Source: Celeribacter persicus (GTDB taxonomy: Bacteria > Pseudomonadota > Alphaproteobacteria > Rhodobacterales > Rhodobacteraceae). From it: a DNA stretch of 64,000 nucleotides. A program made the position numbers and the translations under genes. Every line of letters starts with the position of its first letter. The first letter of the stretch is position 1. The stretch covers positions 1 to 64,000 of the forward strand of contig NZ_QAOH01000011.1 in assembly GCF_003050785.1 (NCBI RefSeq), given 5' to 3'. Positions 18,120 through 49,371 of this stretch are shown in pieces. The notes under the pieces are model-generated. The model did no database searches. It had not been told where the DNA came from and was given only the letters and a program-made list of their open reading frames with translations.

Positions 18120-18300
18120 TCTCGTGTCGCACAGAAAAAAGGCCGAGCTTTCCGGGAAACACCCGAAGATGCTGAACCCATGCGGCGCGGACGAATTGGC
18201 CTGTCTTGCGCCGGCGCGCCAGAATCTCGCGGCGATGCTGCACCTCCGGGGAGGTCATATCCGGCCCGCGCATCATTTCGTTTGCGATTATCTGTAACAT
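18082..18300 (-). CDS. Possible small protein, unrecognised
   Basis: 72 residues, basic (RRREILARRRKTGQFVRAAW-like centre), with no membrane helix and no recognised domain. It is supported by an AGGAGT ribosome site six bases before the ATG and by its position divergent from the LysR gene (98 bp apart), the usual place for a LysR target. Against it: its last 38 bp overlap the end of the HD gene in antisense, and its C terminus looks uncomposed. It may be a remnant. Confidence 0.35.
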   Translation of the reverse strand: MLQIIANEMMRGPDMTSPEVQHRREILARRRKTGQFVRAAWVQHLRVFPGKLGLFSVRHEIKAQPSVPHAAA

Positions 18301-18398
18301 GGGTTTACTCCTGAAAAGCTCGACATTGGCTTTATCTATTACCTATGATGAAATCGTTCCACTCAGGGATTTTTTGAAACTGTAAGTAAAATTTACAT

Positions 18399-19292
18399 AT
18401 GCCCGACATCGACTGGCGTCATATGCCTTCCCTCTCAACCCTGCGCGCCTTTGAGGCAACCGCACGTCTTGGTTCGTTCACAGCCGCGGGTCGGGCGCTA
18501 AACGTCACCCATGCTGCGATCACACAGCAAGTCCGCGCGCTGGAAAAGGACCTCGGGCTGACATTGGTGCAGCGGGAGGGCAGGGGGATGGCGCTTACCG
18601 AAGCCGGACGGCAATTGGCGGAGGCGCTGTCCGAAGGTTTTGCCACAATTTCCGACGGGATTGCAGAGGCACGCAACGGGCCAAGATCGCGCGGGCTTCG
18701 GGTGACCTGCACCCCCGCGCTGTCCTATGCCTTCATCATTCCGCGGCTCGGACAATTCTGGGACGATCACCCCGACATTCCCGTTTCCCTGACGCCCTCC
18801 GGTTCGGTTGACGACCTGAAACGGCGGCAATTCGATCTCGGCATTCGCACCGGCAGCGGCAACTGGCCCGGTGTCGATGTCGAGCCCCTGTGGAGGACGC
18901 GGATCATCCTTGTCGCCAGTCCGATCCTGATCGGCAAACACGGCGGGGATGTGGCGGCTCTGCCGCTGCAAAACATGCCTTGGATACGGTCGCGGGCACA
19001 GCTGGACGACATTGAGTTGATGCGAAAATGCGGGGTGGACGAAAACAAAGTGTCGGCAATCTTCATTGAGGGACAATCGGAAAGCGTACAGGCCGTTGTG
19101 CGTGGCGTCGGCATGACGTTCGTGTCGGAAATCGCGGTGAGCGACGATCTGAAAAGCGGGGGGTTGGTGCACTTGCCCTACGATCTCGGGCAGGGCTTCA
19201 CCTATTTCGCCGCCACCCCTAAAGGGGTGGAGCACCCTTCCACCCGGTTGTTTATCGACTGGTTGAAGACGCTTGCGCCTGAAGCATCTTAA
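18399..19292 (+). CDS. LysR-family transcriptional regulator (GcvA-like)
   Basis: 297 residues. The N-terminal winged helix-turn-helix (about 10-68: LSTLRAFEATARLGSFTAAGRALNVTHAAITQQVRALE) is followed by a type 2 periplasmic-binding-like effector domain (about 95-290). The PSLSTLRAFEAAARLGSF-type opening is typical of the GcvA/AmpR subgroup. Target and effector are unknown; the divergent small ORF upstream is the first candidate target. Its stop overlaps the convergent regA stop by four bases. Confidence 0.9.
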   Translation: MPDIDWRHMPSLSTLRAFEATARLGSFTAAGRALNVTHAAITQQVRALEKDLGLTLVQREGRGMALTEAGRQLAEALSEGFATISDGIAEARNGPRSRGLRVTCTPALSYAFIIPRLGQFWDDHPDIPVSLTPSGSVDDLKRRQFDLGIRTGSGNWPGVDVEPLWRTRIILVASPILIGKHGGDVAALPLQNMPWIRSRAQLDDIELMRKCGVDENKVSAIFIEGQSESVQAVVRGVGMTFVSEIAVSDDLKSGGLVHLPYDLGQGFTYFAATPKGVEHPSTRLFIDWLKTLAPEAS

Positions 19293-39009: not shown

Positions 39010-39836
39010 ACGGAAAGAATGAAATCGCGTGTGGCCGCGTCCACCTCGGGGCGCTGACCGAACCAGCGTTCGAACCCGGGCGCAGCCTGATAAAGCAACA
39101 TGCCAAGCCCATCGACCGTCTGACAGCCTTTTTGCGTCGCCTGTTCGAGAAAGGCCGTGCGCAAGGGCGTGTAAACGATGTCAGTCACCACGGCGTCGGA
39201 ACTCAGAAGATCGAGTGGCACTTTCAACTCCGGCTGCCCCTGCATCCCGAGAGAGGTGGTATTCACCACGGTTGCCGCACCTTTCATCATATCGCCTGCA
39301 TTGACCCATTCGACCACGGAGATTTTCGCTCCGAATTCTTCGCGCAAGGCATCGGCACGCGTGCGCGTGCGATTAGACAGGCGGATTTCCGGCACACCGA
39401 CTTCGAGAAGAGAAGCAATCACTGCGCGCGCCGCGCCGCCAGCGCCCAACACCACCGCAGGCCCCGCCTTCGGGTCCCAATCTGCATTCATCCGCAGGTT
39501 TTCGACAAAGCCATAACCGTCCGTATTGTCGGCATGAAGCTTGCCATCCGCCCGGAAGATCAAAGTATTCGCGGCTCCGATCAGCGCAGCACGGTCCGTG
39601 ACGACATCGGCAATCGCCAGAACATGCTCCTTGTGCGGAATGGTCACATTCGCGCCGACAAACCCCATTTTCGGCATGGCGCGCAGCACTTCTTCGAGAT
39701 CGACCTGTTCCACATGCAGGTGCACATAATGCCCCGCAATGCCGTAGCGCTTGAGCCAATACCCATGCAGCGCCGGAGACTTGCTATGGGCGACCGGCGC
39801 ACCAATTACGCCGGCCAATGGAATATGTTCACTCAT
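39006..39836 (-). CDS. aroE: Shikimate dehydrogenase AroE
   Basis: 276 residues. Reduces 3-dehydroshikimate with NADPH in aromatic amino acid synthesis. Substrate-binding [18 protein letters not shown], the catalytic lysine in [10 protein letters not shown], the aspartate in NTDGYGF and the nucleotide-binding [14 protein letters not shown] with [11 protein letters not shown] are all present. It overlaps maf and coaE by four bases each. Confidence 0.95.
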
Positions 39837-40438
39837 GATGCAATCACCCCTCTTTCCGACAGATATGCCAGAAGCGGCAGCAGGGGCAAACCCAGGACGG
39901 TGAAGTAATCGCCGTCAACCCGGGAAAACAGGCGCACACCTTCTGCCTCCAACATATAGGAGCCGACACAATGGCGAATCTGATCCCAGTTGCGGTCCAG
40001 ATAGGCATCAAGATAGCTGTCTGAAAAGCGGTTCATTTCCAAACGCACTTCCCCGACATGACGCCATTTCGGTTCGCCGTTTTCATAGATCACGACCGCG
40101 GACAAAAGCTTGTGCCTCTCCCCGCGCATCGCTTGCAACTGTTCCCGCGCCTCACCCTTGTCCTGCGCTTTCGACAGGAGCTGTCCTTTGAACGACAACG
40201 TTTGATCGCACCCGATCACCATCGCTTCCGGGTGTTTCATCGACACCTTGCGTGCTTTACCTTCGGCCAGCGCATCCGCGATGTCGCGCGGCGTTGCGCC
40301 CTCGGCCACGAGCGCATCCTTTACAGTTTCTTCATCTATACGACCGACGATGACCTCGAACGGCACACCCGCATTGCGCAGGAGCGTTTGACGAATTTCA
40401 GAGCCGGAGGCGAGGATGAGTTGTCCCGGGATGTTCAT
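39833..40438 (-). CDS. Maf-like nucleoside triphosphate pyrophosphatase
   Basis: 201 residues. Maf/YceF-type house-cleaning enzymes hydrolyse non-canonical or methylated NTPs and have been tied to septum inhibition. The motif LILASGSEIRQTLLRNAG, the catalytic aspartate in VIGCDQTLSFKGQ, and the C-terminal SYMLEAEGVRLFSRVDGDYFTVLGLPLLPLL are present. It is the first gene left of the putative origin and leads the maf-aroE-coaE-dnaQ operon. I cannot separate the Maf and YceF subfamilies by eye. Confidence 0.92.
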   Translation of the reverse strand: MNIPGQLILASGSEIRQTLLRNAGVPFEVIVGRIDEETVKDALVAEGATPRDIADALAEGKARKVSMKHPEAMVIGCDQTLSFKGQLLSKAQDKGEAREQLQAMRGERHKLLSAVVIYENGEPKWRHVGEVRLEMNRFSDSYLDAYLDRNWDQIRHCVGSYMLEAEGVRLFSRVDGDYFTVLGLPLLPLLAYLSERGVIAS

Positions 40439-40688
40439 AATTCTGTTGAAAACTCCTGTGTGACCGCGTTGACCATTCCGGTCATATCTTTACCTGTCAT
40501 TTTCACGGGGGATAAATACGCAGTCCAGCCTCATTTGCTCCGCATCTTATATGCGTGGGTAAGACAAATCGTCCCTCTTTGCATAACTGTAAAACTCCCG
40601 GTCAGGGAGCGTTTTCTCCCCATGTGTTCCAGTTTTATCTTTTAACAATACATTGAAATTAAATGAATTCTCTTCATATATCCGCAAG

Positions 40689-40697
40689 TGTGGATAA
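40689..40697 (-). promoter_or_regulatory. DnaA box, perfect
   Basis: TTATCCACA on the minus strand, identical to the consensus high-affinity DnaA box, just right of the first AT-rich tract. Confidence 0.7.
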
Positions 40698-40730
40698 GAA
40701 ATAAAAGACTTTTAAACCTCTGGACGAGAC

Positions 40731-40739
40731 TGGGGATAA
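40731..40739 (-). promoter_or_regulatory. DnaA-box-like site
   Basis: TTATCCCCA on the minus strand, one mismatch from TTATCCACA. A weaker relative, TTATCCCCC, lies at 40508-40516 on the same strand. Confidence 0.45.
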
Positions 40740-40753
40740 GACAATAATCCAGA

Positions 40754-40762
40754 CTATCCACA
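40754..40762 (+). promoter_or_regulatory. DnaA box, one mismatch
   Basis: CTATCCACA on the plus strand, next to the T-rich second AT tract. Confidence 0.5.
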
Positions 40763-40834
40763 GGCTCTACTAAATCATCATCTTTCTTTTTTCTTTTTAT
40801 ATTTTATTTAGAAGGAAACTGCGAAAGGACGGAC

Positions 40835-41287
40835 ATGGGCGATTTTCTGGCAAGCGTTTATCCTTGGACGAAATCGCTTCATGTGATTTCGATTATCGCC
40901 TGGATGGCCGGGATTTTTTACCTGCCACGGCTTTACGTACGGCATACCGAAAGCGTGGAGCAGGGGTCCGAGACCGATCTTCTCTTTCAGGACATGGAAA
41001 TGAAGCTCCTGAAAATGATCATGAACCCAGCGATGATTTCGAGCTGGTTATTCGGTCTCTGCCTTGTCATGACACCCGGCATCATCGTCTGGTCCGATGG
41101 TTGGCCCTGGGTGAAAGCGATCTGCATTCTTGCAATGACATGGTTTCACATGTGGCTCGCCGTCCGTCGCAAGGATTTCGTGGCCGGGACGAATACCCGC
41201 TCCGGGCGCCATTACCGCATGATGAACGAGTTCCCGACGCTCCTGATGATAGTTATCGTCATCATGATTATTGTGAAGCCATTCTGA
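40835..41287 (+). CDS. hemJ: Protoporphyrinogen IX oxidase HemJ
   Basis: 150 residues; AAAGGA precedes the ATG. HemJ is the membrane protoporphyrinogen oxidase used by most Alphaproteobacteria lacking HemG and HemY oxidases. Four membrane helices are visible. The conserved histidine is H16 (SLHVISIIAWMAGIFYLPRLYVRH), with NPAMISSWLFG and the C-terminal MNEFPTLLMIVIVIMIIVKPF. It is the first gene right of the putative origin. rho follows after 128 bp. Confidence 0.92.
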   Translation: MGDFLASVYPWTKSLHVISIIAWMAGIFYLPRLYVRHTESVEQGSETDLLFQDMEMKLLKMIMNPAMISSWLFGLCLVMTPGIIVWSDGWPWVKAICILAMTWFHMWLAVRRKDFVAGTNTRSGRHYRMMNEFPTLLMIVIVIMIIVKPF

Positions 41288-44018: not shown

Positions 44019-44034
44019 TGTTTCACGTGAAACA
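44019..44034. promoter_or_regulatory. parS centromere site, perfect (overlaps mnmG start)
   Basis: TGTTTCACGTGAAACA, a complete 16-bp parS palindrome, about 3.2 kb right of the putative origin. The mnmG GTG start (44027) lies inside it, so the ParB site overlaps the translation start region. Confidence 0.9.
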
Positions 44035-45895: not shown

Positions 45896-46512
45896 TGCAA
45901 ATCGAAAAAATAGCGGGTCTCGATGTTTCACGTGAAACATTGGAGCGCCTTGAAAGTTATCTGGCGCTTTTGAAAAAATGGAATCCGGTGATCAATCTGG
46001 TTTCTAAATCGACGTTGGAACAAGCGTGGCAGCGTCACTTTGTCGATTCGGTTCAGATTTTCTCCATAGCCCCCAAAGGCCTTCGTCATTGGGCTGATTT
46101 CGGAAGTGGCGGTGGTTTTCCTGGTCTTGTCTGTGCGGTTCTGGCCAAGGAATTGTCACCTGAAATCCGCTTCACGCTCATAGAATCGGATCAACGCAAA
46201 GCGACATTTCTCCGAACTGTGGCGCGTAAGTTGGAACTCGATGTCGATGTTCGGTCACAACGTATCGAACAGGTTGCGCCACTTCACGCCGATCTCATAT
46301 CTGCACGTGCCTTGGCCAGCTTATCCAAACTTCTGGGTTTCGCCGAAAGGCATATGGGGCAGGGAGGACACGCCATTTTCATGAAAGGGATTTCTTTCCG
46401 TGAAGAGATCTCCGAATCCCTTGAAAGCTGGCGCTTCAGCTACGAAGAATACCCGAGCGTCACGGATCCCGAATCCGTCATCCTTCTTATCGGAGATATT
46501 GAGCGTGTCTGA
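45895..46512 (+). CDS. rsmG: 16S rRNA m7G527 methyltransferase RsmG (GidB)
   Basis: 205 residues. SAM-binding motif HWADFGSGGGFPGLVCAVL and the LIESDQRKATFLRTVARKL acceptor loop are typical. It methylates G527 of 16S rRNA in the decoding region; loss gives low-level streptomycin resistance. It overlaps mnmG by one base and parA by eight. The codons for DVSRET contain a perfect parS. Confidence 0.94.
   Translation: MQIEKIAGLDVSRETLERLESYLALLKKWNPVINLVSKSTLEQAWQRHFVDSVQIFSIAPKGLRHWADFGSGGGFPGLVCAVLAKELSPEIRFTLIESDQRKATFLRTVARKLELDVDVRSQRIEQVAPLHADLISARALASLSKLLGFAERHMGQGGHAIFMKGISFREEISESLESWRFSYEEYPSVTDPESVILLIGDIERV
45924..45939. promoter_or_regulatory. parS centromere site, perfect (inside rsmG)
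   Basis: TGTTTCACGTGAAACA, a second complete palindrome 1.9 kb from the first, read in frame as part of rsmG codons 10-16. Confidence 0.9.
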
Positions 46513-47305
46513 CCTTTCCAAACCCAACAGTCCGAAAATTATTGCGGTGGCGAACCAGAAGGGCGGGGTTGGAAAAACGACGACTTCGATCAATCTCGCT
46601 GCGGCGCTGGTGAAAACCGGGTGTCGAGTGCTGGTTGTCGATCTTGATCCTCAAGGCAACGCGTCAACCGGCTTGGGGATTGATCCGGAAAACCGGAATT
46701 ATACCACCTATGATCTTGTGCTTGGAGATGTCGATCTTCACGACGTGATTCAGACCACGGAATTCGAAGGACTTTGGATCTCTCCTGCAACGGTGGATTT
46801 AAGCTCCGCCGATATTGAAATGGTTGCCAATGAAAAACGCAGCTATCTCTTGCACGATGCGCTGCGCCAGCCCGCAATTGACGATTTTCTCTTTGATTTT
46901 ATCCTCATCGATTGCCCGCCTTCGCTCAGCCTGCTGACCGTCAACGCAATGGTTGCCGCCGATTCCGTGCTTGTTCCTCTGCAAAGCGAGTTTTTCGCGC
47001 TTGAGGGGCTGTCGCAGCTCATGTTGACTGTCCGCGAAGTGCGGCAAACCGCCAATTCAAAATTAAGAATCGAAGGTGTTGTGTTGACGATGTATGATCA
47101 ACGCAACAACTTGTCCCGGCAAGTGGAACAGGACGCACGTGATAACCTCGGGGATCTGGTGTTTCAGACGGTCATTCCACGCAATGTCCGGATCAGCGAG
47201 GCGCCGTCTTTTGCACTTCCAGTTCTGGATTATGATCCGGCTTCGAAAGGGAGTCAGGCGTATCAGGCGCTCGCCCTCGAAGTTTTGGCAAAAAAAGGAC
47301 GATAA
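46505..47305 (+). CDS. parA: Chromosome partitioning ATPase ParA (Soj)
   Basis: 266 residues from the GTG overlapping the rsmG stop, with GGAG ten bases upstream. Deviant Walker A KGGVGKTTTSINLAAAL, switch I DLDPQGNASTGLGID, and Walker B FILIDCPPSLSLLTVNAM. The short N terminus without an HTH marks it as a chromosomal (type Ib-like small) ParA. It binds DNA with ATP and moves ParB-parS complexes after replication. parB follows after 3 bp. Confidence 0.96.
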   Translation: MSDLSKPNSPKIIAVANQKGGVGKTTTSINLAAALVKTGCRVLVVDLDPQGNASTGLGIDPENRNYTTYDLVLGDVDLHDVIQTTEFEGLWISPATVDLSSADIEMVANEKRSYLLHDALRQPAIDDFLFDFILIDCPPSLSLLTVNAMVAADSVLVPLQSEFFALEGLSQLMLTVREVRQTANSKLRIEGVVLTMYDQRNNLSRQVEQDARDNLGDLVFQTVIPRNVRISEAPSFALPVLDYDPASKGSQAYQALALEVLAKKGR

Positions 47306-47308
47306 AAC

Positions 47309-48217
47309 ATGTCGCAATCGGGCAGAACAAAGAACAGAGGTCTGGGGCGCGGATTGTCAGCATTAATGGCGGATGTCACGCAGGATACTGTGTCCCCTGA
47401 AGCTGCGACTGAGCCTCGTCGTGCCGATATGATGGTTCCGATTGAGAAGATTGAGCCTAATCCAGATCAGCCGCGTCGCACTTTTGATCAGTCTGCGTTG
47501 GATGAGCTGGCCGAATCAATTCGCGAAAAAGGGGTGATTCAGCCTCTGATCGTGCGAGAAAATCCGCGTAAGGCGGGTGAGTATGAGATTGTGGCCGGTG
47601 AACGGCGCTGGCGGGCCTCGCAATTGGCGCGTTTGCACGAACTTCCGGTTCTGGTGCGCGATTATTCCGACACGGAAGTGCTCGAAGTCGCGATTATTGA
47701 GAACATTCAGCGTTCCGATCTGAACGCGATTGAGGAGGCGGCTGGTTACAAACAGCTTATGGAGCGCTTCGGCCATACCCAGGAAAAACTATCTGAAGCT
47801 TTGGGGAAAAGCCGGAGTCACATTGCCAACCTGATGCGTCTTTTGCAGCTTCCGTCTGATGTTCGGGATTATGTGATTGAAGGCCAGCTTTCCGCTGGGC
47901 ACGCGCGGGCGCTCGTGACGGCCGACAATCCATCTGAATTGGCGCGCGAGATTATTCATAAAGGGCTTTCCGTCCGTGAAACTGAAAAGCTGGTGAAGGG
48001 AGAAAAGACCCCAACCCAGCCTAAAAGCCCCAAAACGTCTAGCTCCGCTGAGAAAGATGCGGATACGAGGGCGCTCGAAGGCGATCTCTCGGCAGCAATT
48101 CGCATGAAGGTGAGTATCACACATAAAGATGGTACGGAGCAGGGAACTGTGACGATTTCTTATGAAAGTCTGGATGAACTGGACACGCTTTGCGCGATCT
48201 TGTCGCGGGGTGCTTAA
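47309..48217 (+). CDS. parB: Chromosome partitioning protein ParB (Spo0J)
   Basis: 302 residues. N terminus (RGLGRGLSALMAD) binds ParA. The CTP-binding/ParB N domain has GVIQPLIVRENP, GERRWRAS and IENIQRSDLNAIEEA; a central HTH (about 145-190, TQEKLSEALGKSRSHIANLMRLLQLP) recognises parS; and the C-terminal dimerisation domain ends ELDTLCAILSRGA. It loads at parS, of which two perfect copies lie 2-3 kb upstream. Its last four bases overlap the convergent hemW stop. Confidence 0.96.
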   Translation: MSQSGRTKNRGLGRGLSALMADVTQDTVSPEAATEPRRADMMVPIEKIEPNPDQPRRTFDQSALDELAESIREKGVIQPLIVRENPRKAGEYEIVAGERRWRASQLARLHELPVLVRDYSDTEVLEVAIIENIQRSDLNAIEEAAGYKQLMERFGHTQEKLSEALGKSRSHIANLMRLLQLPSDVRDYVIEGQLSAGHARALVTADNPSELAREIIHKGLSVRETEKLVKGEKTPTQPKSPKTSSSAEKDADTRALEGDLSAAIRMKVSITHKDGTEQGTVTISYESLDELDTLCAILSRGA

Positions 48218-49371
48218 GCGTCCGGGATCAAATCCCGGATGATTGCATTCAGCAGGGGCCGACCTTTTTCCGATACGGAAAGGCGGCCCTTTTCCTTTTT
48301 CACAAAACCATCATCAATTAAGTAATTGCTTTCAATTGAAAATTCTTGTCCCAAAAGGGCCGAGAGCCGCTCAATCTCGACGCCTTCGGTAATTCTTAGC
48401 CCCATCATGAGGTATTCAACGGCCTGATCGTAACCACTGAGCGCTTCGCGAGGATTTTCCCCATGGCCGTTTTGCTCGACCGAGGCGAGCCAGAGTTGCG
48501 GCGACAGGGGGGTGTCGATGGCGTATTTCTGTCCGCCAAATGTCAGCCGCGCATGTGCACCGGGTCCGATCCCGGCATAATCGCCATAGCGCCAGTAGAT
48601 CAGATTATGGTGGCTTTCAGAGCCCTTTTGGGCGTGATTAGACACTTCATAGGCGGGCATACCCGCCTTTTCACACTCTTCCTGAGTGATGAAATACATG
48701 TCTGCTGCGTCATCATCCGTAGGTAAATTGCGAAGCTGACCGCGATTGTAACGATCTCCGAAGGCTGTGCCTTGCTCGATCGTCAGCTGGTAAAGCGACA
48801 AATGATCGACCGCCATGGACAGAGCTTCGCGCAATTCCTTGCGCCAAGCGTCCTTCGTCTGGCCCTGGCGGGCGTAAATCAGATCGAAACTCACGCGATC
48901 AAAGGTGTTTCGGGCAATTTCAAAGGCTTTCTGCGCCTCGGAAACCGAATGTAGCCGACCAAGTCGTCTGAGATCCTCGTCATGCAGAGATTGAATCCCC
49001 ATCGAAACGCGATTGACGCCGGCGTCGCGATAGCCCTGAAAACGACCCGCTTCGACAGAAGTGGGATTGGCTTCAAGCGTGATTTCCACATCGTTCGCAA
49101 GTCTCCAACAGTCTCGAACCTTGCCTAAAATGGCATTTACAAGCTCGGGGTCCATTAGAGAGGGCGTGCCGCCTCCGAAAAATACTGTGTTCAGAACTCG
49201 TCCCGATGTTTCCCGTGAAACACGTTCGATCTCGGACAGATAGGCGCGTTCCCATGCCGACTGATCAATCGACGCGGCAACATGGGAGTTGAAATCGCAA
49301 TAGGGGCATTTCGACTGGCAAAACGGCCAATGGATATAGAGGCCAAAGCCACCGTTTTGCCAGTCTTCCAT
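48214..49371 (-). CDS. hemW: Radical SAM heme chaperone HemW
   Basis: 385 residues. Radical SAM iron-sulfur motif CQSKCPYCDFNSH (C-x3-C-x2-C) near residue 20, then FFGGGTPSL and NPTSVE. The C-terminal HemW/HemN domain follows (YWRYGDYAGIGPGAHARL). It lacks the N-terminal features of the coproporphyrinogen dehydrogenase HemN and, as HemW, is thought to insert heme into respiratory enzymes. A one-mismatch parS lies within codons for VSRETS. RidA and rdgB lie upstream in the same leftward run. Confidence 0.9.
   Translation of the reverse strand: MEDWQNGGFGLYIHWPFCQSKCPYCDFNSHVAASIDQSAWERAYLSEIERVSRETSGRVLNTVFFGGGTPSLMDPELVNAILGKVRDCWRLANDVEITLEANPTSVEAGRFQGYRDAGVNRVSMGIQSLHDEDLRRLGRLHSVSEAQKAFEIARNTFDRVSFDLIYARQGQTKDAWRKELREALSMAVDHLSLYQLTIEQGTAFGDRYNRGQLRNLPTDDDAADMYFITQEECEKAGMPAYEVSNHAQKGSESHHNLIYWRYGDYAGIGPGAHARLTFGGQKYAIDTPLSPQLWLASVEQNGHGENPREALSGYDQAVEYLMMGLRITEGVEIERLSALLGQEFSIESNYLIDDGFVKKEKGRLSVSEKGRPLLNAIIRDLIPDA
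49207..49222. promoter_or_regulatory. parS-like site, one mismatch (inside hemW)
   Basis: TGTTTCCCGTGAAACA, one base from the perfect palindrome (A to C in the centre), keeping the outer T/A. About 8.5 kb from the putative origin. It is the strongest of the imperfect sites. Confidence 0.5.

Follow-up and report, generated by a model that had tools for sequence, protein, structure and literature searches.

The window analysed here is the first 64 kb (64,000 nucleotides) of contig C11 (118,769 bp) from the draft genome of Celeribacter persicus, which amounts to 4.30 Mb in 94 contigs. The locus of interest had been described as a gene-free gap of 396 bp, and it is indeed the whole of the intergenic space between maf and hemJ, its bounds coinciding exactly with the maf start codon on the left and with the hemJ ATG at 40835 on the right. 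A chromosome partitioning system had been announced nearby and is found there as well:

40439..40834, no strand, proposed oriC region, intergenic from maf to hemJ, 396 bp, GC 39%
39833..40438, minus strand, maf, left neighbour of the gap
40835..41287, plus strand, hemJ, right neighbour of the gap
44019..44034, plus strand, exact parS (word match)
45924..45939, plus strand, exact parS (word match)
46400..47305, plus strand, parA, a ParA-type ATPase scoring below every NCBIfam equivalog cut-off
47309..48217, plus strand, parB
49207..49222, plus strand, parS-like site with one mismatch (word match)

The exact parS sites at 44019 and 45924 are the only two in the whole genome, and both lie 3 to 5 kb from the gap, with parA and parB at about 46400-48217. 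Proximity of parABS is expected of an oriC, and parAB has been suggested as an anchor for locating it (PMC8116508). The original prediction further held that gene directions diverge from the gap. This is true of the four genes closest to it on the left (maf, aroE, coaE and dnaQ, all on the minus strand) and of the first seven to its right (hemJ through parB, each on the plus strand), but not farther out, where orientations are mixed. Given an assembly in 94 contigs, C11 might belong to a plasmid or chromid, and the gap would then be a secondary origin. We find this barely credible: the core genes rho, aroE, coaE, secB and mnmG surround the gap, and the same block is carried by contigs of 3.1 to 4.5 Mb in G004, G006, G007, G017, G018, G022 and G032.

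The gap was said to hold a perfect DnaA box and several near matches; we counted one perfect box, two boxes with one mismatch and seven sites with two mismatches. Six of these sites are as follows:

40689..40697, minus strand, perfect DnaA box TTATCCACA (word match)
40731..40739, minus strand, DnaA box with one mismatch TTATCCCCA (word match)
40745..40753, plus strand, DnaA-box-like site with two mismatches TAATCCAGA, abutting the box at 40754-40762; its TAATCC is conserved in the same-genus alignment
40754..40762, plus strand, DnaA box with one mismatch CTATCCACA, pointing at an AT-rich tract
40678..40686, plus strand, DnaA-box-like site with two mismatches ATATCCGCA, oriented toward the perfect box
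40444..40452, minus strand, DnaA-box-like site with two mismatches TTTTCAACA, beside the maf start

The perfect box and the two one-mismatch boxes span 74 bp. When the gap was shuffled 1,000 times with its dinucleotides preserved, the mean numbers of boxes at zero, up to one and up to two mismatches were 0.006, 0.118 and 1.43, against 1, 3 and 10 observed, and these observed values were matched by 6, 0 and 0 shuffles, respectively. The intergenic cluster of DnaA boxes that is expected of an oriC is thus present (10 sites at up to two mismatches, a number reached in none of 1,000 shuffles). Over the whole window, 13 sites at up to one mismatch were found where 6.2 were expected. Genome-wide, perfect boxes are at the level of a reversed control word (15 and 16 occurrences), so that it is the clustering, and not any single perfect box, that constitutes the signal. 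The spacing of the two opposed boxes was tried as a genome-wide signature and given no weight: it occurs at one place, but so does its reversed control word. A search for an RNA gene in the gap returned a sole match, rejected because its score is far under the threshold (20.1 versus 174.8 bits). Two terminator-like hairpins lie within the gap, at window positions 40470-40484 and 40595-40609, where 0.3 were expected.

A more modest role can be imagined for such boxes. The gap must hold promoters for two divergent genes, and might be a mere divergent maf/hemJ promoter region whose transcription is regulated by DnaA. One promoter-like match was indeed found in it, but this equals the shuffled mean of 1.0. 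Moreover, boxes remain beside hemJ where maf is not found upstream, as in Paracoccus lutimaris (locus L133), and they adjoin hemE, not hemJ, in two genomes from other alphaproteobacterial families, G045 and G048. We consider the promoter reading very improbable.

Of the two AT-rich tracts pointed out beforehand, both are real, and between them they contain the window's least stable 40-mer and 60-mer:

40770..40812, no strand, AT-rich tract with the window's least stable 40-mer, putative unwinding element
40622..40690, no strand, second AT-rich tract, containing the window's least stable 60-mer
40774..40791, minus strand, trio-like run of six triplets with a middle A, 11 bp from the box at 40754-40762

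The 40-mer begins at 40770; the 60-mer, like the least stable 100-mer, starts at 40622. As judged from predicted stability, an easily melted AT-rich tract, such as is expected of an oriC, lies beside the boxes. We applied the published BUS search pattern (PMC8287927), in which at least three NAN triplets are sought within 16 bp of a DnaA box. The gap resembles the BUS / DnaA-trio system described there in its tandem boxes, its 11-bp spacer and its six NAN triplets on the complementary strand; it differs in lacking the preferred 3'-GAT-5' among those six triplets. A run of six was reached in 7 of 500 resampled gaps, some match to the general pattern occurred in 165 of 500, and a run this long appeared in 75 of 2,000 trials in which the downstream bases alone were shuffled.

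Initiation might then proceed as follows. DnaA would occupy the cluster of boxes at 40678-40762 and, starting at the tandem pair (40745-40762), form a filament growing toward hemJ; this filament would contact one strand of the trio-like run and open the AT-rich tract (40770-40812); a helicase would be loaded, two diverging forks would be started, and ParAB would segregate the new parS sites 3 to 5 kb away. The features from which this scheme is built (boxes, unstable tracts, conservation, synteny and a local skew switch) are read directly from the DNA. We give roughly even odds to an unwinding mechanism that uses the tandem boxes, the trio-like run and the hemJ-side AT-rich tract.

The original prediction was exposed to a skew minimum located elsewhere, for example at dnaA. 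The cumulative G-C minimum of the 118.8-kb contig falls inside the gap, at 40793, and dnaA is on another contig. Skew on C11 is -0.034 to the left of the gap and +0.060 to its right, and the strand-corrected third-position breakpoint, obtained by fitting per-gene third-position skew with coding-strand and side terms (genes being called by a simple ORF rule), lies at 40598. Skew was compared in ten genomes, namely the present one and nine relatives chosen from 60. Relative to the hemJ start, the minimum is at -42 bp here, +622 in G004, +1536 in G022, -14728 in G016, -15018 in G001, -15901 in G003, -18288 in G032, -22553 in G018, -23459 in G011 and -30816 in G017. The switch is thus at the gap on C11 and at most 2 kb from hemJ in three of the ten genomes, but it is offset by 15 to 31 kb to the maf side in the other seven. 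The mean profile of the ten genomes lies below zero between -60 and -15 kb and above it between -15 and -5 kb, is negative again between -5 and 0 kb, and is positive in all right-hand bins; the positive mean 5 to 15 kb maf-ward of hemJ (window about 26 to 36 kb) stands against the negative remainder of that arm. Strand-corrected breakpoints are off by 16 kb in G017, 20 kb in G018 and 5 kb in G022, and coding-strand bias was rejected as the cause of the offset because the corrected fit leaves it in place in G017 and G018. Among the matches listed for G017, the segment corresponding to window 0.1-23.7 kb (C1:1695397-1715275) is inverted with respect to the window, and this inversion may account for part of the skew offset of that genome. 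Whole chromosomes were also sampled sparsely, at 20 stretches apiece in G006 and G007 and, in G018, at 20 stretches together with the locus. These samples are consistent with a single switch near the locus for G006 and G018; those of G007 are noisy. Since the minima are spread over the relatives, skew limits the origin to roughly 0 to 31 kb left of hemJ.

Box clusters delimit the region further. In all ten genomes read across the locus, the top-scoring cluster lies at most 225 bp upstream of hemJ, although in G032 a cluster at -3444 ties with the one adjoining hemJ, and in G011 the score is just 2. In G006, the gap cluster is also the best of all sampled DNA. The exception is G007, whose gap holds one box at up to one mismatch, and in which a denser cluster occurs in one of 19 other sampled stretches, at about 3.70 Mb; counting this exception lowered our confidence slightly. 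There (contig C1, about 3.701 Mb, L161:1187-1251), three one-mismatch DnaA-box-like sites fall within 73 bp at a distance from the hemJ locus, and could form a DnaA-titration site or a regulated promoter.

The origin might then be sought elsewhere in the 0 to 31 kb on the maf side (window about 10-40 kb), the gap being a DnaA-binding or titration site. The skew minima of seven of the ten genomes fall in this interval, and the minimum in G018 corresponds in position to an AT-rich intergenic stretch (about 18300-18400) that ranks among the least stable of the window. However, these minima are scattered (14.7, 15.0, 15.9, 18.3, 22.6, 23.5 and 30.8 kb), that of the present genome is in the gap, and no maf-side box cluster was found in the ten genomes, bar the G032 tie at -3.4 kb, nor any at window 18300-18400. 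We hold a displaced origin to be unlikely.

As for dnaA itself, it sits on contig C3 and does not adjoin the origin in the genomes checked. It was rejected as the origin because no box cluster was found in the 80 kb of C3 around it; none was found either near hemE, in 60 kb of contig C5 of the same genome. The skew minimum is also nearer hemJ than dnaA in G017 (31 versus 42 kb), G018 (23 versus 46 kb) and G022 (1.5 versus 84 kb). In G018, two boxes cluster some 4 kb away from dnaA, and G017 has one perfect box beside dnaA.

Conservation was assessed on 80 loci kept out of 262 HemJ relatives in named genomes, with maf starts extrapolated from tblastn. The best HemJ relative among them, at 95% identity, is from Celeribacter ethanolicus; four other Celeribacter records come next (81 to 83%). 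The order maf-gap-hemJ is found in 77 of the 80 loci, with a gap of 339 to 445 bp (median 400); two of the remaining three (L111 and L115) end too close to tell, and the third, that of P. lutimaris, shows no maf match and has six boxes at up to one mismatch in the 380 bp preceding hemJ. The 77 gaps hold 7.5 boxes per kb, versus 0.26 for the flanks of the same loci; at least three boxes are present in 50 of these gaps, a perfect box in 29, and no box at up to one mismatch in 2. A box at this stringency lies close to the maf start in 50 of 78 gaps. Three genomes of the same family, G021, G028 and G030, gave weak HemJ matches alone (E 1.6e-5 to 7e-5), and hemJ may be missing or replaced in them.

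At E ≤ 0.001, the gap DNA itself has a match in 18 of 61 genomes, of which 16 belong to the same genus; in G005, the match is on another contig than hemJ. A 31-bp match in G044 was treated as chance, as none of maf, aroE, hemE, hemJ and rho has a match in the 12-kb stretch that contains it. One short signature of the genus could be defined:

40757..40773, plus strand, genus signature TCCACAGnCnYTACWWA, at the end of the tandem boxes

It occurs once per genome, always beside hemJ, in 17 of the 61 genomes; all 17 are from the genus, which is represented by 20 genomes. The reversed word gives two hits. The exact signature is absent from G004, G005 and G013; near variants exist in G004 and G013, and G005 is divergent. 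Over 78 gaps, a core consensus TAATCCCC(A/G)TTATCCACAGGCCCTACAA is found 71 to 388 bp before hemJ (median 99), some gaps having no convincing core.

In G045 and G048, the gene order is rho, hemJ, hemE, gap, COG1806, maf, aroE, with four and three boxes, respectively, in the hemE-COG1806 gap. This is where the Caulobacter and Rickettsia origins have been placed (PMC1914354). Compared with the Caulobacter crescentus Cori as presented there, the Celeribacter gap is syntenic, with rho-hemJ to one side and maf-aroE to the other, and likewise has DnaA boxes and an AT-rich tract, but it has neither the hemE and COG1806 flanks nor a full CtrA site. In the seven Rhodobacteraceae relatives checked, hemE is at least 250 kb from hemJ (here it is on contig C5), and COG1806 was found in none of eight Rhodobacteraceae genomes, the present one included. 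Exact words for CtrA (TTAA-N7-TTAA), IHF, GANTC and GATC are all absent from the Celeribacter gap; across 78 gaps, the full CtrA site occurs in 1, GANTC in 48 and GATC in 67, and the IHF word is present in 1, or in 11 if read in the other orientation. Judged by exact words, Caulobacter-like CtrA gating is therefore not indicated. The simplest account of gene order in these ten genomes would be that the origin kept its place while its neighbours hemE and COG1806 moved or were lost.

Taken together, a box cluster beyond chance, the skew minimum of C11, the sole pair of exact parS sites, the conserved maf-gap-hemJ order, the genus signature, the lack of any box cluster around dnaA and the synteny with the Caulobacter layout support the reading of the gap as the DnaA-dependent oriC of the main chromosome, to which we assign a probability of about 0.92. 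Counting against it are the skew offset in seven of ten genomes, the single box of G007, the cluster by dnaA in G018, the two boxless gaps among 77, and the control-level frequency of perfect boxes genome-wide.

Origins have been predicted with Ori-Finder in 101 Rhodobacteraceae strains, Celeribacter included, eight strains being left undecided (PMC6699656). By the criteria used in that work (box cluster, local GC minimum, skew minimum, parAB nearby), these predicted oriCs are comparable with the gap. An origin flanked by maf and hemJ is not named in the open-licence PMC literature searched, and may still be in print. The gap is thus a well-supported further case of a known oriC type, whose neighbours differ slightly from the textbook layout. 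Rather tentatively, the Rhodobacterales oriC might even be a distinct subtype, with a near-constant size of about 400 bp, still in place after hemE and COG1806 left, devoid of CtrA sites, and using an unwinding core, box-GGCCCTAC-ATCATC, that is conserved and has triplets unlike the Bacillus consensus.

For Celeribacter, the maf-hemJ gap provides a precise and testable origin. The conserved maf-gap-hemJ unit, present in 77 of 80 kept loci, offers a landmark for the oriC of Rhodobacterales, and the gap suggests an origin that held its position after the loss of both of its textbook neighbours.
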